From Acuticoccus yangtzensis (GTDB lineage: Bacteria; Pseudomonadota; Alphaproteobacteria; Rhizobiales; Amorphaceae): a stretch of 64,000 bases of DNA. Below, one piece after another: positions 8,692 to 32,247 of this stretch; the first letter of the stretch is position 1; the number at the start of each line of letters is the position of its first letter. Below the pieces are notes generated by a model. It had not been told where the DNA came from. It did no database searches and saw only the letters and a program-made list of their open reading frames with translations. The translations under genes and the position numbers were made by a program. The stretch lies in the NCBI RefSeq assembly GCF_001927245.1, contig NZ_MJUX01000003.1, forward strand, positions 1 to 64,000, written 5' to 3'.

Positions 8692-9162
8692 TCAGATGGA
8701 TGATTTGGGCGGCGGCGGATCTCTCGTGATCGCGAAGGCCTGCACCGCCTGGTCTCGCGTTACGGCGGGCATTGCCCCTCGCCGTCGTGCGAGGGAGGTT
8801 CGCGGCGGAAGGACGGCGAGAAGCTGTGCCCCGCAGGCCATGGTGGATGCGCAGTCGGTGAAGGTTTGGGGTGCGTCGCCGCAGTCCCCCATCGGGCATG
8901 GCGCCGCGGCCCCGTGCGTCTCGGCCGATCGATGCTCCGCGATCTTCCCCGGCGGTGCCGCCACGGCGACGGTCGTGGCCGCGATGGGCGGCGCCATGAT
9001 GGTCGCCACAGTGGGAGTCGGCGCCGTCGTGGTCGTGGCCTCTGTGGTCGCAGCCGTGCCCAGCGCGCCATTCGTCGCCGCCGCCGCAAAGCCCGAGACC
9101 GGGGTGGCCAGGGCGAGGCATAAGGCGAGGGTCAAACGGAGGATCGGACCGGTCCAACTCAT
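8692..9162 (-). CDS. Small exported protein, first gene of the copper-type operon
   Basis: A 156-residue protein with a clear signal peptide (hydrophobic LTLALCLALATPVSGFA), an Ala/Thr-rich middle, and a Cys-containing region with CPMGDCG and a later TDCASTMACG. The Cys/His/Met content and the position 122 bp upstream of a multicopper oxidase suggest a role in metal handling, similar in outline to small DUF2946-type proteins of copper loci, but no family could be assigned securely. The start at 9162 is chosen for the signal peptide. The C-terminal PPPPKSSI is low complexity. Confidence 0.55.
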   Translation of the reverse strand: MSWTGPILRLTLALCLALATPVSGFAAAATNGALGTAATTEATTTTAPTPTVATIMAPPIAATTVAVAAPPGKIAEHRSAETHGAAAPCPMGDCGDAPQTFTDCASTMACGAQLLAVLPPRTSLARRRGAMPAVTRDQAVQAFAITRDPPPPKSSI

Positions 9163-9763
9163 GGACCCGACGATGAAGCCGCCCGGCCCCGCCGTCAATC
9201 GACGTGCGTGCCGCAGGGGCCCCATCCCGCCGGCCCTACACCCACGCGCATCCGTCGCTGAGACACACGCGGCCACCGAGAGCCAGATCGCCGCTGCAAG
9301 GCTTCGGCTGGTGCCGTGAGTTGCCTGCGTCGAGAAATCCGGCGCGGGTGTCGCGGAACGCTCGCCCTGTCGGCGGGAAGGTCGGGCCCGGCGCGTTTCC
9401 GACGCCGCGATGCAGGTCGTGCTTGTTTCGTCCTGCGGGACCACCAATCGGTGATGCGCTGCGCCTATCGCACGGTCGCCGGACGGCTATCGGGCGGGTT
9501 TGACGCACCAAAGCGCGGGAGAACCGTTCAGGTTGGCGAAGCACGGGAGGCTATAGCGAGGGCCAATGGCGGAGGGAGAAGGTCTGGCAGCCAACGTTCT
9601 CCGCGTCTTACCATATGGAACAGCCACGATGTTTTTCGACTGCTCCACTTCGGCTTAAGTCGCATCCCCGTCAGAATGCTTCTTTCAGGATCAGTGCAAT
9701 ATGTCACCCTTCTCGAACAAGGCGCTGAGGCATCTCGACGTAACGAAATAGCCGATCGACCAC
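9163..9763. other. Gene-poor stretch
   Basis: About 600 bp between two leftward genes. Open frames exist on both strands, but none has a credible ribosome site, domain or composition. The part near 9600-9760 is more AT-rich. Nothing could be supported here. Confidence 0.5.
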
Positions 9764-10774
9764 TCACGGTTCAAAAATTCTGAATCTTTCTCTGTACTGC
9801 GCTGGTGTGAGGCTTGTGAGCTTCAGGAACGTCTTTCGGAACGCGCTCGTGTCGGCGTAGCCGACGCTCCAGGCGACGCGATCGACCGGCGTAGTTGTGC
9901 GCTCCAGCGCCTCCCGGGCCTTTGCGATCCGGACCTGCTGTAGGTAGTCGTTCGGTCCGTGCCCTGTGGCCGCCTTGAAGCGGCGCAGGAAGGTGCGCTC
10001 CGTCATCCCGGCAATACCGTGAAGCTCACTGATTTTGATTTGAGATGCAGCGTGTGCGTGCAGGTGGTGCTGGATGCGCAGGATCGCCTCGTCGCCGTGG
10101 TTGAATCGCGGAGTGAACTGCGCGAACAGCAGCTGGCTTCCCCGTGGCGGGTCGATCACCAGGAATCGGGCGGTCGATAACATTGTGGCGGGGCCGAGAA
10201 GGCGCTCCACAAGCGTGAGGCCGAGATCGGCCCAAGCGAGGATCCCGCCGGCCGTGATGATGTCGCCGTCATCGAGGACCACATGCTCTGCAGCGAGCTT
10301 CACCTTGGGGAACTGGGCGCCGAGATCCGCTGCGAACGCCCAATGCGTGGTCGCTCGGCGACCGTCGATCAGCCCGGTTGCAGCAAGCATGAATGCCCCT
10401 GCGCAAACCGAGCAGAGCGTCGCGCCCTTGCCGTGCAGCGCCGTCAGCCATTCCGTCGCAACGGGGCTCGATGCCATCTTTCTCGGCACGATTAGGCTCG
10501 GCGGTGCGATGACATGGGTGATGGCATGCGTGCCGGCCTGACTGTCCCACACGCATTCCATTCCAGCATCGGTGGGGCGCCAGTGGCTGACGCGGATCGG
10601 GAGTGTGCCCGCCGCCTCGGAGGCGATCCTGAAGACGTCGGTGAGGCCGTAGACGGCAGAGAGCTGACAGTCCGGATAGATCAGCAAGGCGATTTCCGCG
10701 CTCGCCGCTGTCCGCGGCGGCTGTGTCGGTTTCGCCCTGCTATTTGTCCGTTCCGCCACGCGCGAGCGTCCCAT
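9764..10774 (-). CDS. GlxA-type AraC family transcriptional regulator
   Basis: A 336-residue regulator with an N-terminal DJ-1/PfpI-like amidotransferase fold (about 27-190, beginning IALLIYPDCQLSAVYGLTDV, with a Cys in LCSVCAGAF) and a C-terminal AraC pair of helix-turn-helix motifs (about 230-330; MTERTFLRRFKAATG and VGYADTSAFRKTF). Members of this family control diverse catabolic or stress genes. The gene is divergent from the exported hydrolase at 10817 across only 42 bp, so that gene is the likely target. The gap holds a short inverted repeat, CTTAG-N6-CTAAG (10781-10796), which could be an operator. Confidence 0.88.
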   Translation of the reverse strand: MGRSRVAERTNSRAKPTQPPRTAASAEIALLIYPDCQLSAVYGLTDVFRIASEAAGTLPIRVSHWRPTDAGMECVWDSQAGTHAITHVIAPPSLIVPRKMASSPVATEWLTALHGKGATLCSVCAGAFMLAATGLIDGRRATTHWAFAADLGAQFPKVKLAAEHVVLDDGDIITAGGILAWADLGLTLVERLLGPATMLSTARFLVIDPPRGSQLLFAQFTPRFNHGDEAILRIQHHLHAHAASQIKISELHGIAGMTERTFLRRFKAATGHGPNDYLQQVRIAKAREALERTTTPVDRVAWSVGYADTSAFRKTFLKLTSLTPAQYRERFRIFEP

Positions 10775-18368: not shown

Positions 18369-20851
18369 AGGGGATCTGGCTCGCCGTCGGCGCGACGCTG
18401 ATCCTCCTCGCCGCCAGCTGGGGATGGCTGCAGAGCATCCGCGCGAACGAACACGCGAGCGCCCACGCGATGGCAGCGTTCGACGACTTCGTCACTGCCG
18501 AGAACGATTTGCATCGCGCGGTCCTCTCCGCCCGTGCCGGCTCACTCCGACACTACGACCCGCTCGTACGCGCGCTCGACGCCATGCTGCGTGCGCAGGA
18601 CCGTCTGCGGCGGACCGCACCGGCGCGCGACCTATTCATCCGTGCAGCCGATGCGCTGGGGCCGCGGATCGAGGCCGAGGACGCGTTGGTCGAGCGCTTC
18701 AAGAGCACGAACGCGCTGCTTCACAACTCGCTCGCCTACTTCAGCCGCCTCAGCGAAGACCTCGACGCGGCGGCGACACCTGCCGCCCGCAAGGCGGACG
18801 GGATCGCCACGGCGGTGCTCCACATCATCGTCGATCCGTCCCCGGCGAGCCTCGCGCAGCTCGATGCGGAGATCGCACGGATCGAGCCGATCCATCCGGA
18901 GCGTCATCCCGGTCTCTCTGCCCTCATCACGCACGCTCGCCAGCTTCGCCTCCTTCTGCCCGAGATGGAAGAGACGCTGGCCGCGCTCACCGATCTCGGG
19001 TCCGCGAACGGCCTCGCCACCGCACGCAACGCGCTTCTCTTCAGGCAGGCGAGCATCGCAGCGTCCGCCGATGCGGCCCGCTTTCTCCTCTACGCGATCG
19101 CACTCACGCTGGTCGGCCTGCTCGCCTGGGCTGGGGCTCAGCTTCGGGCGCGGATCCTACTGATCCGCCGGCGCGCAGCGATCGAGCATGTGGTCGCGAC
19201 GATCTCGCTTCGCTTCCTCGACACGCCGCGCGGGACGATGGAAGCGCAGCTCCAGCGCGCGCTGGGGGAGCTGGGAACGAGTTTCGGCGCCACGCGCGGC
19301 TGGTTCATCGTAAGTGCGCCGCTGAAGAGCGTGTACTGGGCGCGCGGTGGCCCGCCTTTCCCGCCCGGCTGGCCACGGGACGTCGTGGCGTGCATGACGA
19401 AGGCAGATCGGGGGGACGGCGGCATCGTACACATCGAAAATCTTCGCGCACGACGCGCGAGGATGCACACGCCGCTCGCCGGATCCTGCGGCGGAAGCCT
19501 TCTCTCTATCGCGCGTGTCAGCGGCGGTGAGGTCCGCGCGGTGCTGGGGTTCGACTGCCTTCGCGCACGCACATTTCGCGAGTCGGGCGCCGACCAGCTC
19601 CTTGCCTTGGCGTTCGACGTGCTGACCAACGCCGTCGCCAAGAGCGCGTTGGAGGAGGAGCGGGAGCGCCTGGAGGCGCACCTCCAGCACGCGCGGCGCA
19701 TGGAGACGGTGGGCGTCTTCACGAGCGGCATTGCGCATAACTTCAACAATATCATCGGCGCGATCATGGGCTATGCCGAGATGGCGTCGGTCGGCGCTGC
19801 GGCAGGCTCGCGCCTCGCCGAGCACATCGAGGCGATTGCGGCTGCGTCCGAGCGGGCACGACAGCTCGTGGATCAGATCCTCGGCTTCGGGCGCCGCAGC
19901 GAGAGCGTGCGCCGCGCGGTCCCCGTCGACGCGCTCCTCGCCGAGACCGTGTCGCTCCTTGCGACCTCGCTACCGCCGTGCGCGCGCCTCGACGTCGCAC
20001 GACCGCCGGATTCCCTTTCGGTCACGGCGGACCCCGGCCAGTTGCAACAGATTCTCCTCAACCTGTGCCGTAACGCAGCCGAGGCGATGGACGGCGACGG
20101 GACGGTTTCGCTTTCCGCCCGCCCCGTCGACCTAGCGGAGCCGCAGGGCGCCGGGGCGGACACGCTGGCGGCGGGCGCATATGTCGTCATCAGCGTGGAG
20201 GACGCCGGACGCGGCATGGACGAGGCGACGCTGGGGCGGATCTTCGAGCCCTTTTTCACCACCCGGCGGCAGGGCAACGGTCTCGGCCTCGCCACGGCGC
20301 TGGAGATCGCCCGCGATCACCATGGCACGATCACCGTACAGAGCACGCCAGGGGCCGGCAGCCGCTTTGAGGTCTGGCTGCCGCAGGCACCCGCGGTGGC
20401 GGCATGCGCGGACGATCGAGCGCTCCCGTATGGCGCCGGAGAAACGGTCATGCTGGTGGAGGCGGACGAGCGGCAGCGCATGCGGCTCGAGGAGGTGCTG
20501 GCCGCGCTGGGGTACGAGCCCGTCGCCTTCGCCGAGTGGGCGCGCGCCGTCGAAGCCGTCCGCGCCGCGCCGATGCGATTCGATGCCGCCGTGATCGTCT
20601 CGGGCGACGGAGTGTTCCTCGGCGCCGAATGCCCGGGCGCGCTTCACGAGGCTGTGCCGGAGATGCCCATCATCCTCTCCGCCCGAACCGCGAAGCGGTT
20701 CGACATCGGGCGGCTGACGGGTGCCGGCATCGCCGAGATGATCCCTTACCCGCCGACGCCGGCACAGCTTGCCGACGCGCTCGCGACATGGCTGAGCGCG
20801 GCGCGCGACCCTCGGACAAGCCTCGTGCTGGACACCGCCCCGCCCGCGTAG
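18365..20851 (+). CDS. VirA-like sensor histidine kinase
   Basis: An 828-residue kinase. A membrane helix at about 4-20 and another at about 236-256 enclose a helical periplasmic sensor region (DAHL-like). A GAF-like cytoplasmic domain (about 265-425) follows, then the HisKA box SGIAHNFNNIIGAIMGYAEM (His458) and an ATPase domain with NLCRNAAEAM, DAGRGMD and NGLGLATALEIA. The C-terminal receiver-like domain lacks the phospho-Asp (VIVSGDG) and is probably regulatory, as the C-terminal receiver of VirA is. It overlaps the peroxidase gene by ATGA. No other vir genes are nearby. The signal is unknown. Confidence 0.88.
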   Translation: MKGIWLAVGATLILLAASWGWLQSIRANEHASAHAMAAFDDFVTAENDLHRAVLSARAGSLRHYDPLVRALDAMLRAQDRLRRTAPARDLFIRAADALGPRIEAEDALVERFKSTNALLHNSLAYFSRLSEDLDAAATPAARKADGIATAVLHIIVDPSPASLAQLDAEIARIEPIHPERHPGLSALITHARQLRLLLPEMEETLAALTDLGSANGLATARNALLFRQASIAASADAARFLLYAIALTLVGLLAWAGAQLRARILLIRRRAAIEHVVATISLRFLDTPRGTMEAQLQRALGELGTSFGATRGWFIVSAPLKSVYWARGGPPFPPGWPRDVVACMTKADRGDGGIVHIENLRARRARMHTPLAGSCGGSLLSIARVSGGEVRAVLGFDCLRARTFRESGADQLLALAFDVLTNAVAKSALEEERERLEAHLQHARRMETVGVFTSGIAHNFNNIIGAIMGYAEMASVGAAAGSRLAEHIEAIAAASERARQLVDQILGFGRRSESVRRAVPVDALLAETVSLLATSLPPCARLDVARPPDSLSVTADPGQLQQILLNLCRNAAEAMDGDGTVSLSARPVDLAEPQGAGADTLAAGAYVVISVEDAGRGMDEATLGRIFEPFFTTRRQGNGLGLATALEIARDHHGTITVQSTPGAGSRFEVWLPQAPAVAACADDRALPYGAGETVMLVEADERQRMRLEEVLAALGYEPVAFAEWARAVEAVRAAPMRFDAAVIVSGDGVFLGAECPGALHEAVPEMPIILSARTAKRFDIGRLTGAGIAEMIPYPPTPAQLADALATWLSAARDPRTSLVLDTAPPA

Positions 20852-25520: not shown

Positions 25521-26603
25521 ATGGACAAGGTCAAAACATCGGCGACCGTCGCGGGCGACGCGGCTCGCCGGCACCGCGCCACGGGGCTGACGGTGGCCGT
25601 GCTGGGCCTCGGCGGGATCGGCGCGGTCGCGGCCGGATATCTTCAGGCCGCAGGGCGCAATCGTATCATCGCCTGCGCCCGGCAGCCGCTCGAACGCATC
25701 GTGATCGAGCGGTCTCACGAGGAGCTCGCGGTCCAGCTCCAGGCGATCACCGATCCGAAAGACGCCGGCCCCGCCGATTGGGTCCTCCTCGCCACCAAGG
25801 CGCATCAAACGCTTTCGGTCGCGCCCTGGCTCGCGCGCCTGTGCCACCGCTCGACCCGCGTCGCGGTCTTGCAGAACGGGGTGCGACAGGTCGAAAGAAC
25901 CGCGCCGTGGATCAGCGAGGCAACGGTCGTTCCCGCCGTCGTCAGCTACAGCGGCGAACGGGTCAGCGCTGATCGCGTGGTGCTGCGTCAGCCGGCGGCC
26001 TTCGACCTCGCGGTTCAGGCTGACGCAGACGGCCGTGCGTTCAGCGATCTCTTTGCCGGAACGCCGCTGCGGATCCTCATCAGCGATAATCTCTCCACAC
26101 TCGCCTGGCGCAAGCTCCTCATCAATTCGGTTGCCAATCCGATCACCGCCCTCACGCTGCAGCGCCTCTCCGTCTTCCGGCGAGACGACATCCGCGCGCT
26201 CGCCGAGACCATGTTGAAGGAGGCCGTCGCGGTCGCTCGCGCAGACGGCGCACGGGTGACGGAGGACGACATCTCGCAGATCCTCGGCACCCTTCGCGAC
26301 ATCCCGGCTGACATGACCACCTCGATGCACCTCGATCGGCTGGCCGGCCGGGCGCTGGAGCTCGACGCCCTCAACGGGGCGATCGTGGCCGCCGGCGAAA
26401 GGCTCGGCTTTGCCGTGCCGCTCAACCGCGCGCTCCTGACTCTCCTGCGCGCGGCGCAAAGCGAGGAGCCCATGGTGCCGCGGCCGGATGACGCCGGGCG
26501 CCCCGACGATGGTGCGTCGCCGGCTGGCGCTCCGGCTGCGTTTGCGCCTGACGGTCCGCTCACAGAGCGCAATCGGCAAACCGCTCCAGCAGGAACTGCG
26601 TGA
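25521..26603 (+). CDS. PanE/ApbA family ketopantoate-reductase-like protein
   Basis: A 360-residue NAD(P)-dependent reductase. The Rossmann motif is VLGLGGIGAVAAGYL. LATKAHQT and LQNGV are typical of the family, and the catalytic Lys is in LAWRKLLINSVANPITAL. The C-terminal helical domain ends near residue 320; the last 45 residues are a Pro/Ala/Asp-rich tail. AGGGA lies upstream of the start. Ketopantoate reduction for coenzyme A is the archetype, but pairing with a hydrolase and the divergence leave other 2-oxoacid substrates possible. The 3' end overlaps a LysR remnant on the opposite strand. Confidence 0.85.
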   Translation: MDKVKTSATVAGDAARRHRATGLTVAVLGLGGIGAVAAGYLQAAGRNRIIACARQPLERIVIERSHEELAVQLQAITDPKDAGPADWVLLATKAHQTLSVAPWLARLCHRSTRVAVLQNGVRQVERTAPWISEATVVPAVVSYSGERVSADRVVLRQPAAFDLAVQADADGRAFSDLFAGTPLRILISDNLSTLAWRKLLINSVANPITALTLQRLSVFRRDDIRALAETMLKEAVAVARADGARVTEDDISQILGTLRDIPADMTTSMHLDRLAGRALELDALNGAIVAAGERLGFAVPLNRALLTLLRAAQSEEPMVPRPDDAGRPDDGASPAGAPAAFAPDGPLTERNRQTAPAGTA

Positions 26604-26706
26604 GAGCGCGCAGCTTTGCCGGCGGCGGACCGGCTGAGGGCGGGCGCACCACGTAGAGCCCGGCCCCGGGCGATCCAAATTGCGGCAGCACGACATCGAG
26701 CGCGCC
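26560..26706 (-). pseudogene. LysR regulator, C-terminal remnant
   Basis: The last 48 codons of a LysR effector domain: GALDVVLPQFG, YVVRPPSAGPPPAKLRALTQ and a terminal FLLERFADCAL. No helix-turn-helix or upstream portion is present; at about 26710 the reading switches to a phage-type hydrolase fragment in another frame. It overlaps the last 44 bp of the PanE-like gene on the other strand. Confidence 0.65.
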
Positions 26707-26716
26707 CAACCGTAGC

Positions 26717-27028
26717 GGGCCCGCACAGGAAGAGTGGCTCGAGCTCGGTGACCAGCGCAGGAAGGCTTTCGGCCGCGATCGCCCCGCCGCTGGCGACGGC
26801 GATGCTCGTCCCTTGGACGACGCCGGACTTCGCCAGCGGCTCGATGTCAGGCGGCAGCGCGACGTCGCGCGGCCAGCGATAGCCGAGCAGCTGGCTCGCG
26901 GAGTACGGCCGGATGCTGACGGCATCGCCCTGGTTGCCGCCGAGGACGAGGATGACGCCGTTCTTCGCGCGACCGGCGTAGAACCCGACGTGTCGCTGCC
27001 AACTGTCGCGCCTGCCGCGACAGAACAC
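26717..27028 (-). pseudogene. Phage-type TIGR02594 peptidoglycan hydrolase fragment
   Basis: The leftward reading WQRHVGFYAGRAKNGVILVL, followed by GGNQGDAVSIRPYSASQLLGYRWP, matches the C-terminal half of TIGR02594 NlpC/P60-like proteins common in alphaproteobacterial prophages. A following hydrophobic GTSIAVASGGAIAA could be a membrane segment. The catalytic Cys part is missing and both ends are broken by other fragments, so this is a remnant. Confidence 0.6.
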
Positions 27029-27080
27029 GACGACGCAGCCGATCGTCGATTTGTCGAGGTTGCGGCCCCAGCTGAGCCTC

Positions 27081-27266
27081 TATTACAACAGCCACGACGC
27101 GCTGCGCCGCCACCTCGCCGACTTCGTCGCAGCCTACAACTTCGCACGCCGTCTCAAGACCCTCAAAGGCCTCACGCCCTGCGAGTTCATCTGCACGACT
27201 TGGACGAATCAACCCGAACGGTTCACTCTCAACCCGCTCCAGCAAATGCCGGGACTAAACATTTAG
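27081..27266 (+). pseudogene. IS481 family transposase, C-terminal fragment
   Basis: The final 61 residues of an IS481-type integrase core: HLADFVAAYNFARRLKTLKG, LTPCEFICTTWT, and the typical C-terminus PERFTLNPLQQMPGLNI followed by TAG. The DDE catalytic region is absent. It sits 50 bp outside the left end of the tRNA-Ser element. Confidence 0.8.
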
Positions 27267-27316: not shown

Positions 27317-27333
27317 TGGCGGAGAGACAGGGA
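27317..27333 (+). repeat. Left attachment site
   Basis: TGGCGGAGAGACAGGGA, identical to the tRNA-Ser 3' end at 32158-32174. It overlaps the arm of an inverted repeat, CAGGGAG-CCATAT-CTCCCTG (27328-27347), that may be part of the integrase core site. Confidence 0.88.
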
Positions 27334-27394
27334 GCCATATCTCCCTGCTAGTTTGTTGCGATTGCTAGCTATATTGCGCCTTCTCGACTTTAAG

Positions 27395-27416
27395 CCCCAC
27401 ATTCCACCCCACATTT
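27395..27416 (+). repeat. 22-bp end repeat, left copy
   Basis: The sequence begins CCCCACATTCCACCCC and ends ACATTT. It has an internal duplication (CCCCACATT twice) and an identical copy, in the same direction, at 32028-32049. It lies 61 bp inside the left attachment site. Likely an arm-type binding site for the integrase. It is followed by an inverted repeat CACATTT-TCTG-AAATGTG (27410-27427). Confidence 0.7.
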
Positions 27417-27998
27417 TCTGAAATGTGACTTTGGATCGATTGCTAGCGATGCGCGTACCCAAGACCGGCTGACTGTAGGCGTTACCGGCGCACGGCTTGT
27501 GGTGCGGCACAGTTCATGTAGCACAGATTGCGATTGGTCTGCCGCCTATCGCTCGTTTGCCGATGTCACCGCTTGGAGCCGGCCGAAGCCTACCGCCTAC
27601 GGGTCCACCGGTCGTTTTTGCCACTACAGCGCTTCAAATAGAGGCGTATTTGAATGTGGCTGCACCCGAATTACTGGAAGGTGTGCTGCGCAGCGGTGCA
27701 GTGGGTCGGGGGGAGGTATCTTGTAAGTCCTTCAAGCCTGCCGGTGAGGCTGCCAGAGTACAGTCTAGAGGGACACACTAATGCATGGCTGAATTTGTTA
27801 TTGAATGCGCTTCTTCTGGAGGGCGCGACAGGTACGGCAGCCCCATTTTGAATGAACGGCGCCTGTTGTCGGCTTGACCAGACAAGACTTGGCAAGGAAG
27901 CTTGCTTCTCCGAAAGCGCCATGTCGCCAGATTCCCATGGGGATCAGCTTGGCGTGGATTAGGGACTACAGAACTCCTTTGCGCGGGACAGGTTCACT
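27417..27998. other. Gene-poor left part of the element
   Basis: About 580 bp with no supported gene. An 11-bp sequence CGATTGCTAGC occurs at 27359-27369 and again at 27437-27447, close to the left end. The rest shows no recognisable domain in any frame. Confidence 0.5.
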
Positions 27999-28378
27999 AT
28001 GTGGCATTTCCGTTGGCTCATCATTTTCGCGGGAATTATGGCTGCGGCTCCAGCTTTCAGCAAGACACGCTTTCACCGTGCAGCGAAGGCCGCCCGCGGG
28101 AACTGGCCTCCAGAGGTGGGAAGCAAGTTTTCATGTTGCCCATGCGCCCCCCCGCCAATAAGCGCTGCTCAATGCGAATGAATATGCCCGGTCATGTGCG
28201 CCTTTACGGTATCCGCGTGGCGAAAGCACCGAGCGTTAGCCGACTTGTGACGGTCCGGCGAAATCGGATCGTATATCAGGCCGGAACCGGCGCCGATGTG
28301 TTCACGCTCGAACTCGACGTATCGAACCGATATGGGCGGCGAAAGATTTTGTTCGACGTTCAAGTGAGGACGCACTAG
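27999..28378 (+). pseudogene. Frameshifted small secreted Ig-like protein
   Basis: The frame at 27999 starts with a convincing signal peptide (MWHFRWLIIFAGIMAAAPAFS). In another frame, 28178-28378 encodes GHVRLYGIRVAKAPS, RNRIVYQAGTGADVFTLELD and VSNRYGRRKILFDVQVRTH, the strand pattern of a short Ig-like domain. The two halves are out of frame, with the break somewhere around 28090-28170. Either a disrupted gene or two unrelated stretches; the first is preferred because leader and domain lie in the right order. The family is not securely named. Confidence 0.4.
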
Positions 28379-28759
28379 GGCCTTTGTGGACCAGTCGAGG
28401 CCCCCCGTGGCGTATCAATCAATGCAAAGCCGCTTTGCGCATTGATGCAGGCCGAGCCAGCTGTCGAACCACTCCCGATCAACATCGACTTGATCTGTTC
28501 CCACAGAAGGGAGGGGGGATGCGCAATGCGGGGTGGGGGTGGTGCCTGAATAGGTTCCATACCTTTCCGACAGGCAGGCAATTTTTAGAAATGGCCGGTT
28601 TCACCGAGCAGGATGGCACCGCGCCGCAGCCGCGCTTGGGTGCGCGCTGCGACGACCAACGCAGTCGAAGGGGCGGAAGGTTCAGTACCCTTCCCATGGT
28701 ATATACATGCGGTACCGAGATGGAGCCGGAGGAAGGCTCATTTAGGCCGTGACGGGTAC
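28379..28759. other. Non-coding stretch within the element
   Basis: About 380 bp with no supported gene. An imperfect direct repeat GGTACCGAGATGGAGCCG / GGTACCGAGGTGAAGCCG occurs at about 28711 and 28787, the second inside the following gene. Nothing else was seen. Confidence 0.4.
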
Positions 28760-29233
28760 TCATGCGGAGCCATCGAATTTGCTCGGGTACCGAGGTGAAG
28801 CCGTCGCCACACGGTTATGCTCCATATGAGTACCGTGTTCTAAATTTTGCGCCTTCCAGATCCGCTCCCAATCGCGCGTTGGCGGCATCCCATCGCAGGA
28901 CTTGTCGGTCACGCGCCACTCGGTTGCCTGCCGTCCATACCATTGGCCCTGCTTCATTTTGACGATGAAGCCGGCAGCCTCCAGTTCGAGGAGGGCGCGG
29001 TGGACCGTGGCCTTGCTCATGTGCAGAAGTCGGGCGGCATCGTGCTGCGAAAGGGCGAGGGTGCCGTTGTTGTCCGTCCTGGCGTCGCCCCGCATGGTGT
29101 AGCGGCAGCGCAGCTCGATCAGGATTTTGACGGCGGGGCCGCTTAGTTGCCGGAAGGCGGGGTGCTGGGCCGTGCTGTAAGGGAGGGGCCAATACTGCCC
29201 CTCCGTATGTTTGGAGCGCCGACGCTTACCCAT
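28760..29233 (-). CDS. Winged-helix protein of the integrative element
   Basis: A 157-residue basic protein with a helix-turn-helix region: LALSQHDAARLLHMSKATVH, then RALLELEAAGFIVKMKQGQW as recognition helix and wing. The N-terminus MGKRRRSKHTEGQYWPLPYS is followed by a helical region (GPAVKILIELRCRY). It looks like a replication-initiator-like or MarR-like small DNA-binding protein, as often found beside AlpA and integrase in rhizobial islands. The start at 29233 is chosen because it overlaps the end of the upstream gene by 8 bp. Confidence 0.65.
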   Translation of the reverse strand: MGKRRRSKHTEGQYWPLPYSTAQHPAFRQLSGPAVKILIELRCRYTMRGDARTDNNGTLALSQHDAARLLHMSKATVHRALLELEAAGFIVKMKQGQWYGRQATEWRVTDKSCDGMPPTRDWERIWKAQNLEHGTHMEHNRVATASPRYPSKFDGSA

Positions 29234-29513
29234 GGGCAGGCTCCAGCACGTTGATTGTCGAGCGGAGCACGTAGCGCGCATGCGTGCCGGAAAATGGCCC
29301 TCCGTGCGGCTCGTGGATCGTCTCCACCGAAACGCCGAGCCGACGCAGCTTGAACACGTAGGCGCTCCAGCGCGGCGCAGGGTTGTCTATCGGCGTGCAG
29401 CCGCGTTCGTCGGCGACAATGAGCTGTAGGAGTGCCCAGGCGACGCGACCTTCGGCGGTGATGGTCTCGGCTCCTTCACCGATGCAGAACCGGATGGATA
29501 TGCGCCTAGTCAT
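29226..29513 (-). CDS. Small winged-helix-type protein of the element
   Basis: A 95-residue protein beginning MTRRISIRFCIGEGAETITA. RVAWALLQLIVADERGCTPI and YVFKLRRLGVSVETIHEPHG give a compact helix-helix-wing pattern seen in small DNA-binding proteins of integrative elements. The start at 29513 overlaps the end of the preceding gene, and the stop overlaps the next start, so the three small genes are translationally coupled. Function unknown. Confidence 0.6.
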   Translation of the reverse strand: MTRRISIRFCIGEGAETITAEGRVAWALLQLIVADERGCTPIDNPAPRWSAYVFKLRRLGVSVETIHEPHGGPFSGTHARYVLRSTINVLEPAHG

Positions 29514-29706
29514 GGTAGCCCTCCGGCTCGACTCCATTCATGCGCGCGATGACGCCCGCGAGCGCCAAACTGCAACGGTTGCGGCGCTGGACAATCAGGC
29601 ATGCGGGGGTGGGTGATGTTGGATGAGGAAGGACGGCCAGCTTTCGCTGCGCCCAGTCGAAGAGAGGCAGCCCGTTGAGGCGAGCGCCATCGTTCGGTAA
29701 GGTCAT
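29506..29706 (-). CDS. Small hypothetical protein of the element
   Basis: A 66-residue protein beginning MTLPNDGARLNGLPLFDWAQ and ending ARMNGVEPEGYHD. GGAGG lies four bases before the start at 29706, which makes it a real gene despite its size. The end overlaps the next start by 8 bp. The middle contains CLIVQRRNRCSLALAGVIAR. No family was recognised; the position between alpA-like and winged-helix genes suggests a regulatory accessory. Confidence 0.6.
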   Translation of the reverse strand: MTLPNDGARLNGLPLFDWAQRKLAVLPHPTSPTPACLIVQRRNRCSLALAGVIARMNGVEPEGYHD

Positions 29707-29802
29707 GGGACCTCCGTAAAGACCAGTTTCGGGGTGCCCCGGTCGCAAGCGGATCGCCGGCAAGCATTGGCTGGCGGCCGGGGCGATCAAATTTAAGAGG
29801 TG

Positions 29803-29985
29803 TCAGGCCTGATGGCGCACGACGGCCGCTTCGAGGTCCTTGCGAACCCAGCGTGTCACGCCGTGAATACGGACGGGCTTGGGAAAGGTGCCATCGTTGA
29901 CGCGGCGCCAAAATGTGGCACGAGAAATCCCGAGCCATGACGCGGCAGCCGCGTCGGTTAGAAGAAGGGGGGCTGATTCGTTCAT
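29803..29985 (-). CDS. AlpA-like helix-turn-helix regulator
   Basis: A 60-residue MerR/AlpA-type protein: LLLTDAAAASWLGISRATFW, followed by RRVNDGTFPKPVRIHGVTRW and a final VRKDLEAAVVRHQA. AlpA-type proteins act as activators or excisionases for tyrosine integrases of P4-type elements, so it probably controls excision. The start at 29985 is preferred; an in-frame start at 30003 adds six residues. Confidence 0.85.
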   Translation of the reverse strand: MNESAPLLLTDAAAASWLGISRATFWRRVNDGTFPKPVRIHGVTRWVRKDLEAAVVRHQA

Positions 29986-30034
29986 TTCAACGCGGCTCTC
30001 CATGTGGATTTGCGTTGCACGGAGAGTTGCGCCC

Positions 30035-30790
30035 CTACGCCTCTGATTGGAAGTCTATTCCCAATAGACCAATTGGCCGCCTCGCATCATTTAGGTCTTG
30101 CTCGGAGATGTTGGCGACGGCCGCTTCCGCAGCGGATTGCCCGTCTGTTCCTAAGCGCAAAAGGGCGCAGATTTCCGTAATAGCCTTTGCGAAGGGCGTG
30201 ATTGGCTCTTGCTTCGAATTCCACCCAAGCTCTGGTTTTTCGCGTCGGCACCTGACATACGCTGCGGCAAGTCTTGCTGCTACAAAATGTGCTCTGGGGT
30301 TGATGGGGGCACCAGGTCCGCTGCTTGGAAAATGAAGGTTCATCTCATCTTCCAATTCGGTTCGGGCGAAATTCATGCGTTTCAACGTATTAACGCTAAT
30401 TGCGACCGATGAAATCGTTAGACCTTCGAGGCGTGCGATGTTTTCTATGCTCGCCCTCTGATTTTTTTCTGGCAACTCGTCATCGACAATCTCCCGTATT
30501 GTAGTATTTTTTATGACTGTTAATATAGATGCGAAGTAGCTGTGAGAAAGTCTTTCGGCTTTCTTCAGGGTTGAGATTGCTTCCTTGTATTCTTTTCTAG
30601 ATTTCAAGCGAGGCATGTTGCGGGCGAAATCGTTCATAAGATTTCCGATCCATATTGCCTCAGGATTGTACAAGGATGGTTCAGGTAGGAGTAGATCGGT
30701 GACAACGGCCCTTATTTCAGCAGCGTGCCCATTTAGAACCGTCGACTGATTGAGCAGAGTAGCGGCTAGCTCTCGTTTCTCGCTGTTCAT
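30035..30790 (-). CDS. Unrecognised 251-residue cargo protein
   Basis: A mostly helical soluble protein, with no signal peptide or membrane segment, beginning MNSEKRELAATLLNQSTVLN. There are charged helices around 60-115 (RLKSRKEYKEAISTLKKAER), then ENIARLEGLTISSVAISVNT, which could be a helix-turn-helix, and AHFVAARLAAAYVRCRREKP. No domain was recognised. The gene is more AT-rich than the chromosome, a sign of transfer. Its ATG overlaps the integrase stop (ATGA), so the two are co-translated. It may be a regulator of the integrase, or accessory cargo. Confidence 0.7.
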   Translation of the reverse strand: MNSEKRELAATLLNQSTVLNGHAAEIRAVVTDLLLPEPSLYNPEAIWIGNLMNDFARNMPRLKSRKEYKEAISTLKKAERLSHSYFASILTVIKNTTIREIVDDELPEKNQRASIENIARLEGLTISSVAISVNTLKRMNFARTELEDEMNLHFPSSGPGAPINPRAHFVAARLAAAYVRCRREKPELGWNSKQEPITPFAKAITEICALLRLGTDGQSAAEAAVANISEQDLNDARRPIGLLGIDFQSEA

Positions 30791-32019
30791 AGGTGTGCCG
30801 AACCGCTTGCGTCACGGCCACTCAATGCGAACTTTGCCCAAGCTCCCATCATCTCGCGTCGCGGCTCAAACAGGTCCGTGCGTCGGTAGGCCCGCTCAGT
30901 CTTGCTCGCCACCGTATGAGCCAGCGCAGCCTCTTTGACCTCGTGCGGATAGTCCGTCACTTCCTCCGCCCAATCGCGAAAGGTGGAGCGAAAGCCGTGA
31001 ACCGTGACGGCCACGCCGAGCCGCTTCATGACTGCGGCGAGCGTGGCGTCGCTCAGAGCGCGCCCCGGCACGCGGGAGGGGAAGACGAGGCCACCGTTGC
31101 CCGCCAAAGGACGGACAATCTCCAGAACCGCCACAGCGGCCTCTGAGAGCGGAACGCGATGCTCCGTCCGCGCCTTCATCCGATCAGCCGGCACGGTCCA
31201 CACACGCGCGTCAAGATCAATTTCATCCCACCCGGCGCCGCGCACCTCGCCGGAGCGAGCGGCGGTGAGGATGGTGAAGCTGAGCGCAAGTGCGCCCATG
31301 CCGTTAACGGCGCCAAGCTTTGTCCAGAAGTCAGGAAGGGAGTTATAGGGCAGCGCCGCGTGATGCTCGGTCTTGTCGCGCTGTTTCGCGAGGCCCTTTT
31401 CTACGCCCTCAACTGGATTGACGCCTTCGCGATAACCAGCCGTCCGCGCCCAATCCAGCACCGTGCGCAGACGCTGCCGGACACGTCGCGCCGTCTCCGG
31501 GCACTCGGTCCAGATCGGCGCCAGAACGCGCAACACGTCTGCCTGCTCGACCGAGGCCACGGGAAGGTCGCCAATCGTCGGAAAAGCGTATCGCTCCAAC
31601 GTCGCCAGCCACTGCTGGACATGCTTCCCGTTTCTCGAATTGGGAACGATGTGTTCGGCGTGGACCGAACAGGCCGCATCCGCAAAGGTCACGGCAGGCG
31701 CCCGGCCCTTGTCCCGCTCTGTTATCGGGTTGCCGCCGGAGCGCGCCACCGCGCGCAAGTGCTGCGCAGCGGTGCGCGCATCGGCAAGCGATACAATGGA
31801 CGCAGAGCCAAGCCCAATGTCGCGCCGCCGCCCATGCACGACCGTGCGCAGCGTCCATCGTCGCGCGCCGCTCGGATCGACTTCGAGGTAAAGGCCGTTG
31901 CCGTCACTATGGCGTCCGGGCCCCGCGCGGCGCACATGGGCCGCTGTCAGTCTGCGTTGCGGGTGCGGCCCTTTGGGCTTTCCCGTCGTGTCCGTCCGAA
32001 CGTCCGCTGAAACCGGCAT
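30787..32019 (-). CDS. Tyrosine site-specific integrase (P4-like)
   Basis: A 410-residue phage-type integrase with an N-terminal DUF4102 domain (DGNGLYLEVDPSGARRWTLR), a core-binding domain, and the catalytic domain: Arg in LTAARSGEVRGA, HxxR in VHGFRSTFRDWA, His in LAHTV and the Tyr nucleophile in TERAYRRTDL. It would recombine the 17-bp core at tRNA-Ser. The start is taken as ATG 32019; GTG 32040 upstream overlaps the 22-bp end repeat. It is the first gene inside the tRNA end of the element and reads away from the tRNA. Confidence 0.92.
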   Translation of the reverse strand: MPVSADVRTDTTGKPKGPHPQRRLTAAHVRRAGPGRHSDGNGLYLEVDPSGARRWTLRTVVHGRRRDIGLGSASIVSLADARTAAQHLRAVARSGGNPITERDKGRAPAVTFADAACSVHAEHIVPNSRNGKHVQQWLATLERYAFPTIGDLPVASVEQADVLRVLAPIWTECPETARRVRQRLRTVLDWARTAGYREGVNPVEGVEKGLAKQRDKTEHHAALPYNSLPDFWTKLGAVNGMGALALSFTILTAARSGEVRGAGWDEIDLDARVWTVPADRMKARTEHRVPLSEAAVAVLEIVRPLAGNGGLVFPSRVPGRALSDATLAAVMKRLGVAVTVHGFRSTFRDWAEEVTDYPHEVKEAALAHTVASKTERAYRRTDLFEPRREMMGAWAKFALSGRDASGSAHL

Positions 32020-32027
32020 CGCGTCCA

Positions 32028-32049
32028 CCCCACATTCCACCCCACATTT
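32028..32049 (+). repeat. 22-bp end repeat, right copy
   Basis: Identical to 27395-27416 and in the same orientation, 108 bp inside the right attachment site and just upstream of the integrase start. Placement at both ends suggests integrase arm sites; here it could also let the integrase control its own promoter. Confidence 0.7.
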
Positions 32050-32157
32050 ATGATGCGATATGGTGAGACATGTCGAGCCTAGGTGAGAGCATCACCAGTC
32101 GGAAACACAGGCTATGTGAGGATATTTTGACGATACGAGAGCGAGTGAAAACGAAAG

Positions 32158-32174
32158 TGGCGGAGAGACAGGGA
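32158..32174 (+). repeat. Right attachment site within tRNA-Ser
   Basis: The 17-bp sequence TGGCGGAGAGACAGGGA forms the last bases of tRNA-Ser (CCA end plus acceptor and T-arm sequence) and is repeated at 27317-27333. Confidence 0.88.
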
Positions 32175-32247
32175 TTCGAACCCTGGGTACGGTTGCCCGT
32201 ACAACGGTTTTCGAGACCGCCCCGTTCGACCGCTCCGGCACCTCTCC
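32158..32247 (-). tRNA. tRNA-Ser (anticodon CGA)
   Basis: A 90-nt tRNA read leftward: GGAGAGG acceptor paired with TCTCTCC, a long variable arm typical of tRNA-Ser, anticodon CGA in TCTCGAAA, T-loop GTTCGAATC, and an encoded CCA. Its 3' end is the integration site of the adjacent element and remains intact. Confidence 0.95.

Follow-up and report, generated by a model that had tools for sequence, protein, structure and literature searches.

We found that a 64,000-nucleotide stretch of the Acuticoccus yangtzensis genome (contig NZ_MJUX01000003.1, positions 1 to 64,000; hereafter the window) carries, between positions 27317 and 32174, a real and complete-looking minimal integrative element that apparently belongs to an undescribed lineage. 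Directly observed were the attachment-site (att) repeats, the tRNA they lie in, the spacing of the end repeats, a gene order that recurs in relatives and a conserved cis site at the putative initiator gene. We consider it fairly probable that the element has the life cycle of a phage satellite and needs a helper in order to move, both the helper and the packaging being putative. The initial annotation of this DNA had spoken of a minimal mobile island or satellite, and we arrived at the same reading.

The ends are supported in three ways: by an att copy in the 3' end of a tRNA gene, by a 22-bp repeat inside the ends, and by relatives with a single att copy. The 17-bp direct repeat TGGCGGAGAGACAGGGA is exact at both ends, as the initial annotation had stated, and since ARAGORN placed a tRNA-Ser(CGA) at 32158-32247 on the minus strand, the right copy is the tRNA 3' end. 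Sites within 3 mismatches of this repeat numbered 3 in the window (the third, at 18907, has 3 mismatches) against a mean of 0.38 in shuffled sequences, and 0 of 100 shuffles reached 3. The Rfam scan returned the tRNA and one sub-threshold match on the opposite strand. Direct repeats at the ends, one of them being the tRNA 3' end, and an integrase gene (int) near one end are the arrangement expected of a tyrosine recombinase that integrates at tRNA genes; the earlier view that ends, integrase position and intact tRNA fit site-specific integration is thus borne out. Measured in 500-base windows, GC content ranged from 46 to 67% within the element, where the left third had 56-60%; the flanks shown mostly had 63-75%, apart from a single dip to 59% near 23 kb. 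The features at the ends are these:

27317 to 27333, plus strand: distal att copy, 17 bp (exact repeat; single copies in relatives without int)
32158 to 32174, plus strand: att copy within the tRNA-Ser(CGA) 3' end (exact repeat and ARAGORN)
32158 to 32247, minus strand: intact tRNA-Ser(CGA), the integration target (ARAGORN; Rfam RF00005, 50.9 bits)
32028 to 32049, minus strand: predicted arm-type site on the int side, AAATGTGGGGTGGAATGTGGGG (22-bp exact repeat)
27395 to 27416, minus strand: predicted arm-type site on the distal side, same 22 bp and orientation (exact repeat)
27352 to 27450, no strand: 21-nt direct repeats flanking the distal arm site at 27352-27372 and 27430-27450, 81% alike (candidate sites for an excisionase)

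Nine relatives, seven congeners and two from the family, were compared at the tRNA. G006 was excluded from the single-copy test, its contig ending inside the tRNA; the stretch covered was 3.9 kb in G001, about 13 kb in G004 and about 18 kb in the rest. Within it, no second att copy of at least 12 bp was found in the 8 remaining relatives, and five of them without int at the tRNA (G003, G005, G007, G008 and G009; about 18 kb) have one att copy only. These five show the single att copy expected of an empty site, but the uninterrupted pre-insertion left junction was seen in no genome compared. With that reservation, no relative was found with the same genes at the tRNA and the left repeat missing, and relatives with one att copy and no int there do exist.

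Related loci furnished 17 mapped elements, mostly from Alphaproteobacteria, in which a direct repeat of 14-62 bp lies at a tRNA 3' end and recurs 3.7-12.5 kb away. They came from 44 rows with an upstream int (two duplicates) and 14 later loci; 10 loci without a same-strand upstream int were left out. All 17 have a related integrase and a winged-helix gene between the repeats, and their targets are tRNA-Ser(cga), Ser(gga), Ser(tga), Thr, Arg, Lys and Pro. In the window, the 22-bp repeat lies inside the att copies, 61 nt away at the distal side and 108 nt at the int side. Its length was reached by none of 264 pairs of 250-bp windows drawn at random from the element, and a search of the own genome with the distal region found the repeat only at its two sites in the element. 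Once the 12-bp tRNA-Tyr pair of L187 and the duplicate L169 had been dropped, 12 mapped elements could be compared: in every one, the longest direct repeat common to both ends is found at 92-131 nt from the int-side att and at 44-73 nt from the distal one; L178 also has an inverted repeat of equal length. Four of five elements mapped later fit this geometry (113-131 and 44-76 nt), L234 deviating, so that 16 of the 17, the window included, have end repeats at similar distances from the att cores. In the window, L091, L149, L179 and L189 the end repeat exceeded every control pair in length, and that of L171 was reached by 1 of 253. The 22-bp repeat and the shared geometry thus support both ends independently of the 17-bp repeat. 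We infer that the inner end repeats are arm-type sites of the integrase.

From int to the gene of a winged helix-turn-helix (wHTH) protein, six genes run leftward on the same strand and overlap or lie no more than 96 nt apart, which agrees with the leftward block of small genes noted previously. They are followed by about 1.36 kb without a recognisable gene:

30787 to 32040, minus strand: int, tyrosine recombinase (Pfam PF13356, PF22022, PF00589; PHROG 1)
30035 to 30790, minus strand: p251, overlapping int by 4 nt (ATGA); putative positional counterpart of iolg (see below), no family
29803 to 30003, minus strand: AlpA-like putative excisionase/activator (Pfam PF05930, 21.5 bits; PHROG 66)
29506 to 29706, minus strand: p66, small gene, function unassigned (a similar gene at the equivalent position in some relatives)
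29226 to 29537, minus strand: HTH_91 winged-helix protein (Pfam PF22324, 124.6 bits)
28760 to 29233, minus strand: wHTH protein, probable O-like replication initiator (profile matches, matches of relatives)
27334 to 28694, no strand: distal region without recognisable gene, lost or unrecognised cargo (gene, homology and packaging-site searches)

The earlier integrase call held: the protein is a tyrosine recombinase with three Pfam domains (Arm-DNA-bind_3, Phage_int_M and Phage_integrase). Its likelier start is the ATG at 32019, because the GTG at 32040 falls within the 22-bp repeat 32028-32049. GC content at third codon positions was 0.73-0.77 for int, p66, HTH_91 and wHTH, 0.66 for AlpA, 0.50 for p251, 0.48-0.63 for the longer open reading frames (ORFs) of 27334-28694 and 0.83-0.92 for two host genes. 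The p66 protein had no accepted Pfam match. In PADLOC, the AlpA-like HTH weakly matched mad1 (0.00013), and the weak matches of the wHTH protein were to HTH ends of other models. Pfam, PHROGs and NCBIfam scans of the element proteins recognised no family of relaxases, secretion proteins, capsids, terminases or primases. The claim that conjugation, replication and capsid genes are all absent therefore stands for conjugation and capsid families, but replication functions are probably present.

Indeed, the wHTH protein is probably an O-like replication initiator with an adjacent origin. Among its relatives, that of L149 matched a phage replication-initiation model at 1.5e-6 and that of L171 a helicase-loader model at 5.9e-7; the L149 protein also matched, at 6e-12, a 'replication protein O' (as deposited) in the 16-kb record of Pseudomonas phage vB_Pae_U1. 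The wHTH profile aligned over 86 residues with the plasmid initiator domain 4pta_D, at a non-significant 0.065 and below several transcription regulators. The candidate origin comprises the following:

28695 to 28836, minus strand: probable origin straddling the wHTH 3' end, four iteron-like repeats and an AT-rich box (repeat test, position weight matrix, alignment)
28816-28836, 28786-28802, 28746-28771 and 28711-28727, minus strand: iteron-like repeats
28695 to 28710, minus strand: AT-rich box, TATAAATACCATG-like

At the wHTH stop of the window there are 8 repeat pairs, a number reached by 2 of 500 shuffles. In 18 of 44 loci, the 250-bp region at the wHTH 3' end outscored every one of 40 shuffles, as compared with 1/40, 3/40 and 4/41 for control windows (L169, the same place as L149, and L118, on the same contig as L193, were excluded). 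Ten loci align across the site with 20 invariant columns of 303 and the AT-rich box at the end. A position weight matrix was built from nine non-window sites chosen by eye, L089 being excluded for its different register. Its best match in the window was 28746-28771 on the minus strand (26.5 bits; next 13.8), and on leaving one out, each training site ranked first in its own locus (9/9). Among 34 untrained loci, the best match of five fell on the coding strand no more than 150 nt from the wHTH stop (L178, L179, L180 and L181 at 18.7-32.6 bits, L090 at 13.8), and weak best matches lay near it on the other strand in L152, L177 and L192 (4.0-11.5 bits); the remaining loci had no best match there. 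The motif was also found in 3 of 13 new loci (L221, L222 and L224); L223, probably the same contig as training locus L174, was not counted as new. The origin motif, as far as these alignments and scores go, marks a subgroup of elements that includes the window. Its conservation in sequence and near-constant spacing across host orders is expected for an origin, and in phage-inducible chromosomal islands (PICIs) the origin, with iterons and an AT-rich region, is described as lying immediately 3' of the initiator gene in the part of the report drawn on here (PMC6092414). The site may instead be a promoter-operator.

The p251 gene stands at a constant place and has no recognisable kin. No relative was detected in 149 other genomes (own genome alone, 1/150), there was no match in Pfam, PHROGs, PADLOC or NCBIfam, and the sole PDB match was to an unrelated protein at 0.051. 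Of 44 int rows, 28 have an ORF of at least 120 codons that starts -14 to +59 nt from the int stop, 16 of them with the start 4 nt before the int end; in this count L118 and L193 are one contig, and L178 then starts with TTG. The L090 ORF overlaps its own AlpA-like gene and is no real counterpart. An all-against-all phmmer comparison at 0.1 linked only L150/L188/L173, L094/L182 and L118/L193, and ten of these proteins had nothing better than 0.05 in Pfam. In the phage-inducible chromosomal minimalist islands (PICMIs) of Vibrionaceae, the iolg gene of PICMI115 overlaps int by ATGA and was reported as essential for excision, and over 35 subfamilies the genes at this place fall into 13 distinct families, according to the sections of that report used here (PMC10803314). 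We take p251 to be the counterpart of iolg by position. The 4-nt overlap, frequent though not universal among PICMIs, is present (p251 starts at 30790, int ends at 30787).

Relatives of the wHTH protein were found in 11 of 150 genomes drawn as relatives and in 20 of 385 genomes of the class, and PF22324 in 17 of 397 genomes of the order and 0 of 14 control genomes (all but the last of these counts include the own genome). Among 24 loci that had been fetched by a wHTH or HTH_91 match, int, the AlpA-like gene and HTH_91 stand in this order on the same strand in 14. Species genomes, when scanned, yielded 23 loci, one already known, mostly in Alphaproteobacteria with a few in Gammaproteobacteria; the alphaproteobacterial hosts include Rhizobiales, Oceanibacterium, Kiloniellaceae, Parasedimentitalea, Sulfitobacter, Sneathiella and Maricaulis. 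Some relatives carry cargo beyond wHTH (a Panacea-type antitoxin domain in L178, a type ISP enzyme in L180), and in others phage genes stand beside the same int/wHTH start: a large terminase in L107, a portal and small terminase in L189, and a capsid-protease and tape measure in L193. The tRNA-bounded L193 (108-10613, 10 kb) and L189 (5629-14829, 9 kb) have a few head, tail or terminase genes and are too small for full phages. The IMG/VR contig L107 (1-9398) is 9.4 kb long, and its ends are identical over 60 bp. It codes for int, an ORF overlapping int, wHTH, the large terminase and a weak AlpA-like gene; judging from these ends, it is possibly a circular relative outside the chromosome.

Read from this anatomy, excision, replication and the roles of all proteins may be pictured as follows. 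Int, the AlpA-like protein and probably p251 would recombine the two 17-bp att copies by means of the arm sites about 110 and about 60 nt from att, and excision would yield a 4.84-kb circle. Bound to the iterons at the 3' end of the gene that encodes it, the wHTH protein would start replication with borrowed helicase and polymerase, while HTH_91 and p66 would regulate replication or connect it to the helper. The circle or a concatemer would then be packaged by a helper phage; helper packaging is proposed because the element itself lacks genes for transfer, capsid or terminase.

Several findings weigh against this satellite life cycle. Neither a packaging gene nor a cos or pac site could be found in the window element, nor a helper for it, and its excised attP junction had 0 matches in IMG/VR. 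The distal stretch lacks a convincing counterpart in the own genome or in relatives: its 1.43 kb gave, against the own genome, the arm repeat and short weak matches (best 21-bp exact, E 0.011); among the distal regions of 13 relatives there was a single 13-bp match (E 0.60); and no match at 1e-3 came from tblastx against the collected loci, own excluded. The AlpA-like gene named in the initial annotation does exceed the Pfam cut-off for PF05930, but barely (21.5 against 21 bits), so that its identity is marginal. The end repeats of 6 of the 12 elements are just 9-11 bp, not significant in length and distinguished by position alone. The repeat test at the wHTH stop was not significant in 26 of 44 loci, and 29 of the 34 untrained loci have no origin motif on the coding strand near that stop. 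In PHROGs, the window wHTH matched a transcription-regulator model (0.00019) better than a helicase loader (0.0056) or an initiator (0.0098), and the MarR/IclR-type HTH models of Pfam likewise ranked above the replication models. Finally, L189 and L193 could be decayed prophages.

An excisable island that moves in another way, through a conjugative plasmid by an oriT (origin of transfer) mimic, through generalised transduction or through gene transfer agents, and whose wHTH protein is only a transcription regulator, would accommodate the missing packaging gene and the MarR/IclR-type matches ranking above the initiator models; Alphaproteobacteria, moreover, often carry gene transfer agents. We regard it as unlikely, though deserving of attention: the iteron/AT-rich site is conserved across host orders, as for an origin (an operator is still conceivable), and 20 scanned proteins of relatives include phage head and terminase genes but no relaxase. 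Rather improbable, in our judgement, is a prophage or larger satellite in decay, immobile now that its structural genes are gone, with the 1.36-kb gene-less stretch as the mark of a deletion. That stretch (27334-28694) does lack a conserved gene and its ORFs are low in third-position GC, although AlpA and p251 are low too; the left flank is full of debris; and some relatives have structural genes. Yet no mismatch separates the two att copies or the two 22-bp sites, the six genes all have open frames, and 8 of the 16 other mapped elements, each from a different host, are just as small (3.7-6.3 kb) and likewise have mapped ends. A coincidence of repeats around a chance collection of genes is very improbable; a lone 17-bp repeat could be an old tRNA fragment from another element, and integrases of other islands stand at tRNA-Ser(CGA) in 3 of 8 informative relatives, but the second, 22-bp repeat lies at distances typical of mapped elements and the gene order is common to distant hosts.

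Comparison with known satellites places the element outside PICMI, PICI and P4 by their defining features, there being no primase and no fis site. With P4-like satellites it presumably shares the integrase type, an AlpA/Vis-like protein and the tRNA target; it differs in that the element scans named no primase-helicase and no P4 structural-control gene. Its size is, we assume, about one third of the usual Gram-negative PICI, and it has none of the primase or pri-rep fusion genes that accompany alpA in those islands. Capsid-forming PICIs are alike in that L107, L189 and L193 join the int-wHTH start with terminase, portal or capsid genes, whereas the window element has none of these. No relaxase or type IV secretion genes, as in integrative conjugative or mobilisable elements, were found in the Pfam, PHROGs and NCBIfam scans. 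As far as the relevant part of the PICI report goes, Gram-negative PICIs have the same one-directional order of int, alpA and replication genes, with AlpA as activator, and an iteron/AT-rich origin immediately 3' of the initiator; their iterons, however, lie on both sides of the AT-rich region, those of the element on one side only (PMC6092414). PICMIs, in the passages describing their gene content, are similar in size class, in the sequence of int, an ATGA-overlapping gene, alpA, often a small gene and a replication gene, in their large non-coding stretches, and in having int-overlapping or contiguous genes in many families (PMC10803314). They are defined there by a primase, in place of which the element has the wHTH initiator and HTH_91, and all were found at fis rather than at tRNA-Ser(CGA); the defining primase was not found in Pfam, PHROGs and NCBIfam scans of the element. 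That report gives no complete PICMI outside Vibrio, and its main text does not contain the words Alphaproteobacteria or tRNA (PMC10803314). Charybdis elements, as portrayed in the portion of their description used here, were ruled out by their archaeal host and different gene set (PMC12324425).

We judge the chances to be evenly balanced that these loci form a separate, undescribed lineage of minimal satellites centred on Alphaproteobacteria, with a primase-less O-like initiator and conserved iteron origin replacing the satellite primase, a fixed arm-site geometry and a hypervariable int-overlapping gene, so that this anatomy arose or spread well beyond Vibrio. To our knowledge, phage satellites have been described chiefly in enterics, vibrios, streptomycetes and Gram-positive cocci. 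Searches of the open-licence literature found no phage satellites for Rhizobiales or Rhodobacteraceae and nothing on phage satellites with Alphaproteobacteria, integrase and AlpA; without AlpA, the results were on other subjects by title. Within that literature, the lineage is apparently undescribed. If the reading is true, an abundant bacterial class has its own minimal satellites, and the gene set, a recombinase, partner gene, activator, initiator and origin, represents a lower limit for this lifestyle. The origin motif and end-repeat geometry offer a simple means of finding further elements and fixing their ends, and the int-overlapping gene, constant in place and varying in sequence, is a puzzle that can be tested in many hosts.

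Searched against phages and plasmids, the whole element matched 4 and 12 records, in the int and HTH_91 regions only. IMG/VR contained four loci with wHTH and no match to the exact degenerate origin pattern; wHTH was not found in plasmids at 1e-5, nor HTH_91 in GenBank phages at 0.01. The 11 pattern matches to HTH_91 in IMG/VR were none of them confirmed, yet L110, fetched via int, encodes one.

The tRNA-Ser(CGA) site itself is, to judge from its surroundings, an integration hot spot with older scars, because three congeners have integrases there and the left flank holds a LysR stub and fragments of mobile elements. The congeners' integrases, related to but different from that of the window (43-47% identical), lie beside the equivalent tRNA in 3 of 8 relatives, G001 (L082), G002 (L085) and G004 (L084). 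In the congener G005 the tRNA is followed by an intact LysR gene about 1.2 kb away and a flavodoxin-fold gene, and the LysR stub in the window has the same order and orientation relative to the tRNA:

26563 to 27266, no strand: left flank outside the element, with LysR stub, TIGR02594 fragment and IS481-type fragment
26563 to 26727, minus strand: LysR C-terminal stub, last 55 residues, 39/55 identical to the G005 LysR
26846 to 27028, minus strand: TIGR02594 C-terminal fragment
27051 to 27266, plus strand: IS481-type transposase C-terminal fragment

Among the relatives, a protein with a GG-x-GSG start recurs in 10 loci by tblastn (L171, L173, L178, L179, L180, L186, L224, L225, L228 and L232), and in 7 of the 10 its gene lies within 400 nt of the wHTH stop. 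The copies of L171, L173 and L178 had no Pfam match, and the window has no match to this or to the Panacea proteins. It is probable cargo, with function unassigned. Another HTH_91 homologue lies in L218, on a 41-kb RepABC replicon (Microvirga lotononidis plasmid), where, in the region 8767-10598, an HTH gene flanks it on one side and PC4, toprim and AAA genes on the other; this is perhaps the early operon of a phage-plasmid.

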